Positions 3,229-5,338 of a DNA stretch of 42,468 nt are shown here, in pieces. The translations under genes and the position numbers were made by a program. The notes under the pieces were generated by a model. The model saw nothing but the letters and a program-made list of their open reading frames with translations. It was not told the origin of the DNA and did not search any database. Source of the DNA: Nitrospirota bacterium (GTDB lineage Bacteria; Nitrospirota; Leptospirillia; Leptospirillales; Leptospirillaceae). Position 1 is the first letter of the stretch; each line of letters begins with the position of its first letter. The stretch spans positions 1 through 42,468 of the forward strand of contig JAJYYA010000023.1 in NCBI GenBank assembly GCA_021801345.1, given 5' to 3'.

Positions 3229-4098
3229 TCAGGGCGCCAGTCGAAAGCGCGACCAGCCCGGGCGGTAGCGCACGAGGAACTCCCCCGCTTCCCGGTCGAG
3301 CCGCTTTCGGATCGTCGGAGGTAGCCTCCGGGAGAGTGCGGCATAACGGGCGGCGGCGGAAGGCAGGGTCGCTTTGGCAAGGGCGTCCCAGAAGTAAGCC
3401 TTCTCGAGGCTTTTCGGACCGCCCAGCCCCCGCTCCCAGAGGACGCCCAGCCGGGAAAACGCGTCGGGATTGCCGGAGTCTTTCGCCGCCCGATCGTACC
3501 AGTAGCGGGCCCGGATAAGATTTTTCCTGACCCCTTCCCCCCGTTCGTACCGCAGCCCCAGAAGATCCTGGGACTCTCCGTATCCGTGTCGGGCCGCCCT
3601 CAGATACCAGCGGAGGGCGCGGGCGTCGTTCTTTTTCACCCCTACCCCTCCGGCATAACGGTCTCCCAGCGCGTCCTCGGCCGGGGGATATCCTCCGTGT
3701 GCCGAGCGTCTGAGCCAGAAAACGGCCCTCCGGTCGTCCTGGGGGACGCCCCGACCGATCTCGTAGCGTTGGGAGAGGATCATCATGGCCGAAAGACTCC
3801 CCATGCCGGCAGCCTGCCGGTAAAGCGCGATCGCGCGGGGAAGATCCCGGGGCGTCTTGTGCGCGCCAAAGTCGAAGCGGAGAGCCTCCCGGACCAGCCG
3901 ATCGGGATCGGCCTTGGAAGAGGTCGACCCTCCCTCGTATATTCTCTCCGGCGGCGTCTGAGAGAAGGCCAACAGAGGAAAGAGAAGGAGTCCCAAGCCA
4001 GCATAAAGGAACGACCTGCCCACTCGCCCATCCCCCCGACAAAGGGGGCGAGCCGGGAGCTCGCAAAATATTTTTCCCGAATCTTTCTTGACAAGCAT
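3229..4098 (-). CDS. Exported Sel1-repeat (SLR) protein
   Basis: This 289-residue protein has a basic N-terminus, a hydrophobic segment at about residues 30-44 ending LLAFSQ, then at least four Sel1-like helical repeats (A-x-x-x-L-G-x-x-Y-x-x-G-x-G-V pattern; examples ILSQRYEIGRGVPQD and LLGLRYERGEGVRKN). Such repeats are alpha-alpha solenoids that hold protein complexes together, often in the envelope. ATG 4098 is preferred to ATG 4119 because AAGGGGG lies five bases before it. The hydrophobic segment would make it periplasmic or anchored in the inner membrane. Its specific partner cannot be told from the sequence. Its start region overlaps a divergent plus-strand promoter. Confidence 0.85.
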   Translation of the reverse strand: MLVKKDSGKIFCELPARPLCRGDGRVGRSFLYAGLGLLLFPLLAFSQTPPERIYEGGSTSSKADPDRLVREALRFDFGAHKTPRDLPRAIALYRQAAGMGSLSAMMILSQRYEIGRGVPQDDRRAVFWLRRSAHGGYPPAEDALGDRYAGGVGVKKNDARALRWYLRAARHGYGESQDLLGLRYERGEGVRKNLIRARYWYDRAAKDSGNPDAFSRLGVLWERGLGGPKSLEKAYFWDALAKATLPSAAARYAALSRRLPPTIRKRLDREAGEFLVRYRPGWSRFRLAP

Positions 4099-4115
4099 GA
4101 AATCCCCCTTATACT
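4088..4115 (+). promoter_or_regulatory. Strong plus-strand sigma-70 promoter into an apparently empty gap
   Basis: TTGACA (4088-4093), a 16-base spacer and TATACT (4110-4115) match 11 of 12 consensus bases. Transcription would start near 4122 and run into the 4120-4470 region, away from the Sel1 gene whose first codons the promoter overlaps. Confidence 0.6.
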
Positions 4116-4148
4116 TCATTCACATCTTTGGAGAATAAGGACTCAGAA

Positions 4149-4232
4149 GTGCCCCTTTCGCCCGGGAGACTATCCGGCCCAGACACAGGACGCCGGAAGC
4201 CCCTGTCGGAACGGGGAGAGCTCCTGAGATAA
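4149..4232 (+). CDS. Possible 27-residue leader peptide
   Basis: A short frame starts at GTG 4149, with AAGGA seven bases upstream, and ends at TAA 4232. Its stop codon falls in a perfect hairpin (GCTCCT at 4220-4225, loop GAGATA, AGGAGC at 4232-4237). The peptide is rich in Pro, Arg, Leu and Ser and has no runs typical of amino-acid attenuators. Its position between a promoter and a downstream small gene would suit a leader peptide, but chance is a real alternative. Confidence 0.3.
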   Translation: MPLSPGRLSGPDTGRRKPLSERGELLR

Positions 4233-4320
4233 GGAGCGGGTCGGGAGGATCCGCCCCGCTTCCGCACAGGCTTCCCAACGCAGTGCCCCCAAAGAAGTGA
4301 CCTGAGAGAAGGAGTCGATA

Positions 4321-4446
4321 ATGACAGAGAGACTCGAGCACCCCGCGACAAAGGCGTCAAGAGTTCTCCGCATCCTTCGCCGGACCCTTCGGACGATCGG
4401 AGAGTTCCTCTCCGGACCCGGAGCCACGGGACGCCTCGCCCCCTGA
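4321..4446 (+). CDS. Putative 41-residue basic amphipathic small protein
   Basis: ATG 4321 is preceded by AAGGAG with a six-base spacer, and the frame ends with TGA at 4444-4446. The middle (about residues 14-30, RVLRILRRTLRTIGEFL) is a basic amphipathic helix, followed by a Gly/Pro-rich tail. A terminator-like hairpin starts at the next base after the stop, and a near-consensus promoter lies about 205 bases upstream, so promoter, ribosome site, frame and terminator are arranged as a complete gene. Both neighbours (Sel1 and rlmB) are on the other strand, so it is not an operon by-product. I recognise no family. Membrane binding or nucleic-acid binding are both possible for such a peptide. Confidence 0.5.
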   Translation: MTERLEHPATKASRVLRILRRTLRTIGEFLSGPGATGRLAP

Positions 4447-4472
4447 TCAGACGGGGGCTTGCCCTCGTCTGA
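4447..4472 (+). terminator. Hairpin after the small ORF, probable intrinsic terminator
   Basis: TCAGACG (4447-4453) pairs with CGTCTGA (4466-4472), extended inward by a G-U pair and GGG/CCC to an 11-pair stem with a CUUG loop. A moderately T-rich tail (TTCCTGATTTCT) follows. On the minus strand the G-U pair becomes an A-C mismatch and the tail is G-rich, so the element favours plus-strand RNA. Confidence 0.55.
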
Positions 4473-4570: not shown

Positions 4571-5338
4571 CTACCCTTCCTGCGGGATCTGCCGATAGAG
4601 GAAGATCCCCGCGGCAACGGAGAGGTTCAGGCTCTGGACCTTGCCGCGCATGGGAAGCCGGAACCTCCAGTCGGAGAGATCGAGAACCGGCCTGGTGACC
4701 CCCTTCTCCTCCGCCCCGACGACCAAGACGATGGGAGCCGGCAGGACTCCCTCCGGGAGGGGCTCCCCTTCGAGGTCGAGCGCCACCACGGCATACCCCT
4801 CCCGCTTGAGCTGGCGAAGGCTTGCCGACAGGTTGCCCACCCGCACGAGGGGAAGGGTAAAAAGGGCGCCGGCCGAGGTCTTGGCCGCCGTCTGGGAAAG
4901 CGGGGCGACCCGGCGTTTCGGGAGAAGAACCCCCGCCACGCCGGCGGCATCGCAGGTCCGGAGAAGCGCCCCAAGATTTCGGGGATCGGAAACCCCGTCC
5001 ACGGCCACAAGGGGAGAGGGCAGAAAGGGCCCCGGTCCGGATGTCGTCGAGCGACCCGAAGGAGCCGAGCTGGCGTCAAGAAAGTCTTCGAGGGAGGGGT
5101 AGGTCCAGACGGCCTGGATCCGGGCAATGACGCCCTGGTGGCCCGGGCCTCCGGGAGCGCCGGGAGTCGATGAGTCGCGGAGGAAGAGCCGGTCGATCGC
5201 GGGGGAAGGAAGGAAGTCGAGGGGGATCCCGCGGGAGCGGGCCAACCGGATGATCTCCCGCCGGCGGGAGTCGTGGTGGTGGTCGTCGCGCAGGTAGAGA
5301 TGGACGATGCTGTCGGGCCGACTGGCAAGGATCTCCAT
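4571..5338 (-). CDS. rlmB: TrmH/RlmB-family (SpoU) RNA 2'-O-methyltransferase
   Basis: AdoMet-dependent enzyme of the knotted SPOUT class; the closest role is 2'-O-methylation of a guanosine in 23S rRNA. Motif 1 (VDGVSDPRNLGALLRTCDAAG), motif 2 (VLVVGAEEKG) and motif 3 (LPMRGKVQSLNLSVAAGI) are all visible in the C-terminal half, preceded by a variable substrate-binding domain with a His-rich loop. From ATG 5338 it has 255 residues, but the in-frame codons just upstream encode GGIHPV, the conserved N-terminal motif of the family, so the true start is probably upstream. The only candidate before the cysS stop is CTG 5380, which overlaps the cysS TGA and would give 269 residues. It is co-transcribed with cysS. 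Confidence 0.88.
   Translation of the reverse strand: MEILASRPDSIVHLYLRDDHHHDSRRREIIRLARSRGIPLDFLPSPAIDRLFLRDSSTPGAPGGPGHQGVIARIQAVWTYPSLEDFLDASSAPSGRSTTSGPGPFLPSPLVAVDGVSDPRNLGALLRTCDAAGVAGVLLPKRRVAPLSQTAAKTSAGALFTLPLVRVGNLSASLRQLKREGYAVVALDLEGEPLPEGVLPAPIVLVVGAEEKGVTRPVLDLSDWRFRLPMRGKVQSLNLSVAAGIFLYRQIPQEG

Follow-up and report, generated by a model that had tools for sequence, protein, structure and literature searches.

The plus-strand unit between a Sel1-repeat protein gene and an rlmB-type methyltransferase gene in the analyzed window (the whole stretch of 42,468 nucleotides, contig C14 of the 2.6-Mb genome G000) is interpreted here, as a leaning rather than with assurance, as an orphan copy of the translated leader elements of one bacterial family, which would act as tandem leader-peptide switches. 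In complete copies of this element a promoter is followed by a short upstream ORF (uORF1), a C-/U-rich tract, a second small ORF (ORF2) and, in most of them, a cation-transport gene or operon. The window copy has kept the promoter, ORF2, and a hairpin at the ORF2 stop, and is devoid of uORF1, the covarying stem, the C-rich tract, and a target gene. No Pfam, NCBIfam, or Rfam family covers it, and the family is previously undescribed.

The small-gene unit in the window

The promoter, the 41-codon frame preceded by AAGGAG, the hairpin at its stop, and the opposite-strand orientation of both neighboring genes, all of which had been proposed in a preceding sequence-only reading of this region, were recovered at the positions listed in Table 1. 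Promoter-like sites are more numerous in the region than expected from shuffled sequences (4 vs. 0.2), and the syntenic copies carry the promoter at the same site with the same spacing, as TTGACA-16-TATACT in G010, TTGACA-16-TATGCT in G003, and TTGACA-16-TATAAT in G013 and G008. The 27-codon leader frame of that reading is likewise present but not conserved: the two nearest relatives have no counterpart, as G010 contains a different 10-codon ATG frame and G003 no start. The leader RNA folds modestly better as a whole than its shuffled versions (z about −2) and is not clearly conserved. The 60 nt from the ORF2 stop fold with z = −4.2, and the hairpin, which has a weak T tail (CCTGATTTCT), is a candidate for a weak terminator or an attenuator arm.

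Table 1. Features of the unit (window positions) and the second element copy in the same genome
Feature	Position	Strand	Remarks
Sel1-repeat protein gene (PF08238)	3229..4119	−	neighbor, divergent from the unit
Sigma-70 type promoter TTGACA-16-TATACT	4088..4115	+	11/12 consensus matches; overlaps 5' end of the divergent Sel1 frame
Leader RNA	4122..4308	+	5' end predicted
27-codon GTG frame	4149..4232	+	present, no conservation; probably non-functional
Shine-Dalgarno AAGGAG of ORF2	4309..4314	+	6 bases 5' of the ATG
ORF2, 41 codons, MTERLEHPATKASRVLRILRRTLRTIGEFLSGPGATGRLAP, TGA stop	4321..4446	+	ATG start; candidate arrest leader peptide
C-terminal motif L-x-x-P-G-x-x-G-[RK]-[LI]-x-P-stop	4408..4446	+	conserved
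Hairpin, 5' arm starting inside the ORF2 stop codon	4445..4474	+	13 pairs, G-U allowed
rlmB-type SpoU methyltransferase gene (PF00588)	4571..5338	−	neighbor, convergent with the unit
Second element copy, complete	G000:C63:2202-2315 (L060)	−	ORF2 profile

Conservation and composition of ORF2

A comparison of synonymous and nonsynonymous change across relatives, as the sequence-only reading had suggested, confirmed that ORF2 is conserved. Over 19 aligned copies the conserved positions are P(−1), [RK](−4), G(−8), P(−9), and L(−12), with P(−1) missing in one copy, and in 22 of 25 copies the stop codon follows immediately after the last proline of the motif. In the NRAMP-linked copies the reading frame stays open beyond the motif, and the last proline is missing from one outer-membrane (OM) copy. 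Within the last 14 codons, all four proline and all four glycine codons are in use at the invariant P(−9) and G(−8), and pN/pS is 0.47 in frame vs. 1.90 and 1.73 in the shifted sense frames. The antisense frames are excluded by their ratios (1.39 and 1.49) or by stops, which occur in 7 of 22 copies in the sole wobble-matched antisense frame. Judged by this pattern of codon change, ORF2 is a real, translated protein gene conserved through synonymous change.

The length of ORF2 is mostly 33–46 codons, and constraint is restricted to approximately 12 residues at the C-terminal end, whose distance from the stop is fixed, while the N-terminal part varies freely. This part is basic and amphipathic. 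The mean hydrophobicity of the peptide is near zero, and a search of it for a transmembrane stretch or an N-terminal membrane or export signal found none. CXXC is absent from every ORF2 tabulated. The earlier description of the peptide as basic, amphipathic, and without a known family also holds, as four ORF2 peptides tested against Pfam gave no match up to E = 5 and NCBIfam likewise yielded no family. A hairpin 1–8 nt after the ORF2 stop is clear only in the subgroup of CDF-linked and rlmB-site copies (CDF/rlmB subgroup); right after ORF2 it is missing in the mgtA copies, most OM copies, and G003. In G010 (L002 1878-1950), the end of ORF2 is duplicated in tandem just 3' of the gene (GACGCCTGGCCCCCTGAGAT), and this duplicate supplies the hairpin. 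The conserved tail of the neighboring Sel1 protein oddly resembles that of ORF2 (EFLVRYRPGWSRFRLAP-stop in the window Sel1 protein vs. EFLSGPGATGRLAP-stop in ORF2), and the Sel1 orthologs (L166-L172) end with LRP or LLP-stop.

Distribution of the element family

What the sequence-only reading had missed is that ORF2 is one of about 25 paralogs or orthologs. The unit between the Sel1 gene and rlmB is also present in G010, G003, G013, and G012, and at the same site in G002 and G008 it is followed by a cation-diffusion-facilitator (CDF) gene. It is absent from this site in G009, where a DNA match (L004) lies in an unrelated gene region and was discarded. In G011 only a piece of the leader remains (L006), a remnant that is common to G003 (TGATTCTTTCACCGGGAGG..GATCGTCAACCGC) and from which the promoter and ORF2 have been lost. 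Searches with a peptide profile detected further ORF2 copies in the order, including the second copy in the window's own genome (Table 1), and a sequence model built on the uORF1 region revealed copies in additional genera of the family. The resulting table comprises 25 elements, which stem from 15 of the 21 genomes of the order. The second copy in G000 is followed by an uncharacterized outer-membrane protein gene with a Fur-box-like sequence (GATAATGACTCTCATTACC) upstream.

When 396 genomes of the phylum were scanned, matches to the ORF2 profile were restricted to one family, apart from a single weak one in G170 that is internal to a 529-amino-acid frame and was rejected. A match in a viral contig (L049) was attributed to chance, as it falls inside a long phage protein and has no P-stop tail, and a second viral scan for ORF2 found nothing. 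The relatives with names are Nitrospirae metagenome-assembled genomes such as WH5.bin21, UBA4572, and LSA1.bin22, and are probably Leptospirillum-like acid-mine bacteria.

uORF1 and a covarying stem in complete copies

In complete copies, uORF1 comprises 15–28 codons and is located approximately 225–315 nt 5' of ORF2. A Shine-Dalgarno sequence precedes it in all 17 copies examined, and the encoded peptides start with MDDGPSP, MESDPSR, MDGDSSP, MGQDSSP (MGQDSSPRRK), or MDAGSC. For the MDDGPSP and MESDPSR groups, pN/pS of the first codons is 0.30 in frame vs. 1.75 and 0.74 in the other frames; the members of the MDAGSC group are too similar to each other to be informative on codon change. As far as such comparisons can tell, both uORF1 and ORF2 show the codon change of protein genes.

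A covarying stem of approximately 20 bp is formed between the 3' half of uORF1 and the downstream C-/U-rich tract. Cognate uORF1-tract duplexes have a mean of −32.0 kcal/mol vs. −27.7 kcal/mol for non-cognate ones, and none of 10,000 permutations was as good. The stem sequences are lineage-specific and compensatory, for example in the pairs GCGGACAGGA/UCCUGUCCGC, GGCGGAAGGGA/UCCCUUCCGC, and ACGGA..GGAAAAGGAGG/CCUCCUUUUCC..UCCGU. Every uORF1 copy also has a C-over-G tract (C 31–45%, G 8–17% over 78 nt), and a C-over-G bubble of this kind is taken as the sign of a Rho site (PMC9426467). Pairing of the C-rich tract with the Shine-Dalgarno region of ORF2 was weaker, at a mean z of −1.6, and we do not assert it. 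In four loci (L035, L045, L048, L069), the uORF1 stop is overlapped or directly adjoined by a very short ORF (MRI, MKTV, MMKRT, MKKI) located behind a GGAAAGGAGG tract, which gives the impression that another, tiny leader peptide is made there.

The covarying stem, together with some nucleotides around uORF1 that are invariant beyond coding needs, might suggest that the element is a riboswitch or a dual-function regulatory RNA in which the ORFs are incidental. This explanation is very improbable given the protein-type codon change in both ORFs and a window leader that lacks the stem, and no Rfam family matched the window or 20 related loci at the gathering score, including the M-box, Mg_sensor, yybP-ykoY, and NiCo riboswitches in the latter. 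Sub-threshold Rfam matches of the window were regarded as chance only and lie on the other strand. Because the window leader closes with UCUUUGG/CCAAAGA, 6S RNA (RF00013) was considered as well, but it had no match in the window and the genome's own 6S RNA candidate is located elsewhere, at C69 (41 bits, below the family cut-off). The dual-function RNA that the sequence-only reading had considered for the window unit found nothing in its support.

Genes downstream of the elements

The genes 3' of the elements include five CDF genes (PF01545), NRAMP genes (PF01566) in two copies, and a CzcC/B/A-type RND operon (OEP/HlyD/CusA-CzcA TIGR00914). In G015 and G020 the element is directly followed by MgtA (TIGR01524; 1249 and 1247 bits, respectively), and outer-membrane/lipoprotein operons also occur, one of which leads into mgtA. 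The targets of elements E11 and E21 were recognized by their sequence similarity to the Pfam-tested targets of E12 and E20. Three of the four mgtA genes of the order thus have an element (two directly, one at the operon head), and none was found upstream of mgtA in G018. Most of the 35 CDF genes found in the order have no element directly upstream, so the association is with particular transporters and not with CDF proteins as such.

An outer-membrane protein family with the signature WGPNTSGPxFTGTAEVEP (L082, L083, L087, L127, L132) is encoded 3' of many elements and precedes mgtA in G014 and G018; where tested, it had no Pfam or NCBIfam match. Several elements have a gene for a CsoR/FrmR-type metal-sensing repressor just 5' (L069, L063, L106, L108; PF02583 was confirmed in L082, which covers the L069 locus), and a protein sensor may therefore act alongside the leader.

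The association with cation-transport genes also bears on the idea of ORF2 being a type I toxin gene that comes with a leader of its own. Small, basic, amphipathic peptides encoded in multiple, dispersed copies of patchy occurrence would suit such a gene, yet apart from its transporter association ORF2 encodes no hydrophobic transmembrane peptide and is constrained at a C-terminal Pro-stop, and neither an antisense promoter nor a paired RNA was seen. We regard the probability of a toxin as next to negligible.

The regulated small protein envisaged by the sequence-only reading is supported insofar as the window contains a real plus-strand small gene with its own promoter. As complete copies have another uORF, a covarying long-range stem, and mostly a downstream cation-transport gene, this gene would however be a cis-acting leader peptide rather than a stand-alone protein.

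The orphan state of the window copy

The ORF2 tail is kept without a downstream gene in five genomes (G000, G010, G003, G012, G013). Between the window and G010, the last 15 codons of ORF2 are identical at 42 of 45 bases, compared with 119 of 163 aligned bases in the leader and 49 of 97 in the downstream region. Changes in the tail amount to 3.0 synonymous vs. 0 non-synonymous between G000 and G010, and pS is 0.47 vs. a pN of 0.14 between G000 and G003, which by the measure of codon change places the tail of the window ORF2 still under purifying selection. With promoter, ORF2, and hairpin retained as well, the window copy probably still makes the peptide. In the rlmB tree G000, G003, and G011 group together, and the orphan state is thus probably older than their split.

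We consider it improbable that the window copy is what remains of a transporter leader in decay and has no function today, although the copy has lost the other parts of the element and its target gene, ORF2 is wholly lost in G011, where a leader remnant is left, and the hairpin is absent in G003. Such decay is at odds with the synonymous character of the tail changes and with promoters that still hold 11 or 10 of 12 matches. For the window copy, a role of the peptide without a cis target is weakly favored over a slowly decaying relic.

A purely cis-acting role does not explain why orphan copies without a downstream gene have kept the tail. The small proteins MntS, MgtS, and MgtR act in trans on cation transporters or at the membrane, and ORF2 might similarly encode a protein acting in trans, with its leader position being a mere matter of operon organization. 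The orphan copies and the basic amphipathic helix of the peptide are consistent with this alternative, which we nevertheless consider rather unlikely. A common protein partner is unlikely, as the peptide is found before transporters of unrelated types (CDF, NRAMP, RND, P-type ATPase), and the element additionally comprises uORF1 and a covarying RNA stem. Moreover, conservation confined to the last approximately 12 residues at a fixed stop distance, with a free N-terminal part and no transmembrane segment, is not what a trans-acting protein would lead one to expect.

Comparison with known leader peptides and proposed mechanism

The interpretation as a tandem leader-peptide switch draws on likenesses to several known systems. 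At low Mg2+, ribosomes translating MgtL drop off at its EPDP start, with refolding of the leader (PMC11282234; PMC11552253). Like MgtL (the mgtA leader peptide of Salmonella and E. coli; cf. corA/corL), uORF1 is a short leader ORF with acidic and proline residues in its very first codons, an ORF that the window copy lacks, and a Mg2+ transporter lies downstream at the mgtA loci of G015 and G020, which is not the case for the window copy. Alternative structures around a pyrimidine-rich tract may be a further likeness to the mgtA leader: the elements described here have the covarying uORF1-tract stem and the C-over-G tract, and the alternative state and Rho dependence are predicted for them. The elements differ from that leader in having a second leader ORF, CDF, NRAMP, and RND targets as well, and no Rfam match. 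Two consecutive leader ORFs (mgtM and mgtP) also control the Mg2+ transporter operon mgtCBR of Salmonella, by attenuation (PMC3641672). There, however, the MgtM peptide is not conserved and mgtP senses proline through consecutive Pro codons, whereas here both peptides are conserved and ORF2 ends with Pro-stop.

For ORF2, the closest parallels are arrest peptides. Pro-stop arrest uORFs stall in vitro with the stop codon in the A site and need residues −1 and −3 (PMC10987492); they share with ORF2 a conserved proline directly before the stop and a conserved residue nearby, but precede secA/secDF in Bacteroidota and have membrane signals, whereas ORF2 precedes cation transporters and has no such signal. 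SecM stalls at R-A-G-P with the proline in the A site (PMC10951299). The RAGP of SecM, the RAPP of ApdA/ApdP, and the RAPG of ApcA resemble the [RK]-[LI]-x-P of ORF2 in the Arg three residues before the terminal Pro, but the motif interior differs and the ORF2 proline precedes the stop codon in nearly all copies. Metal can act through an arrest uORF, as exemplified by the metal-responsive RAPP uORF CruR (PMC9426467). In CruR (DUF2946), as in ORF2, the arrest motif is located at the C-terminus of an upstream ORF, and a metal-related (copper) operon is under its control via transcription termination; CruR has approximately 145 amino acids with CXXC and RAPP, in contrast to the shorter ORF2, which has no CXXC and, in the four peptides tested, no DUF2946 match in Pfam.

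Ribosome stalling and metal sensing by the elements are predicted by analogy to these systems. uORF1 would sense a divalent cation by its acidic/Pro/Ser start in an MgtL-like manner. Early ribosome drop-off on uORF1 would allow the uORF1-tract stem to form and to hide a Rho loading site, and full translation of uORF1 would open this stem. ORF2 would be an arrest peptide on which the ribosome stalls at Pro-stop (or at the Pro codon). As the hairpin of the CDF/rlmB subgroup starts 1–8 nt past the stop, a ribosome held on ORF2 would cover its 5' arm, and read-through could result. Several observations speak against this explanation: Sec-related arrest peptides usually have an N-terminal membrane signal and ORF2 has none, a hairpin right after ORF2 is clear in the CDF/rlmB subgroup only, and the NRAMP copies and one OM copy depart from the Pro-stop ending. 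A more far-reaching version of the tandem-switch reading, which we put forward only tentatively, is that of a portable switch of one lineage, in which an MgtL-like cation-sensor ORF and a Pro-stop arrest ORF have been placed before at least four unrelated classes of cation transporters, and orphans keep the arrest peptide alone, possibly for a role in trans.

Implications

To our knowledge, metal-responsive leader peptides are known from few systems, namely MgtL, CorL, mgtCBR, and CruR. The finding is best filed as a conserved small gene and a new leader-peptide family within the known kind of leader and arrest peptides, with stalling as a prediction. Having no Pfam or NCBIfam match, the ORFs are likely to be overlooked by annotation. 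If the interpretation is true, a cassette of two leader ORFs and a covarying stem before mgtA, NRAMP, CDF, and RND genes would extend the logic of these systems to another lineage and to metal efflux, and the tail of ORF2 would represent a new Pro-stop arrest motif.
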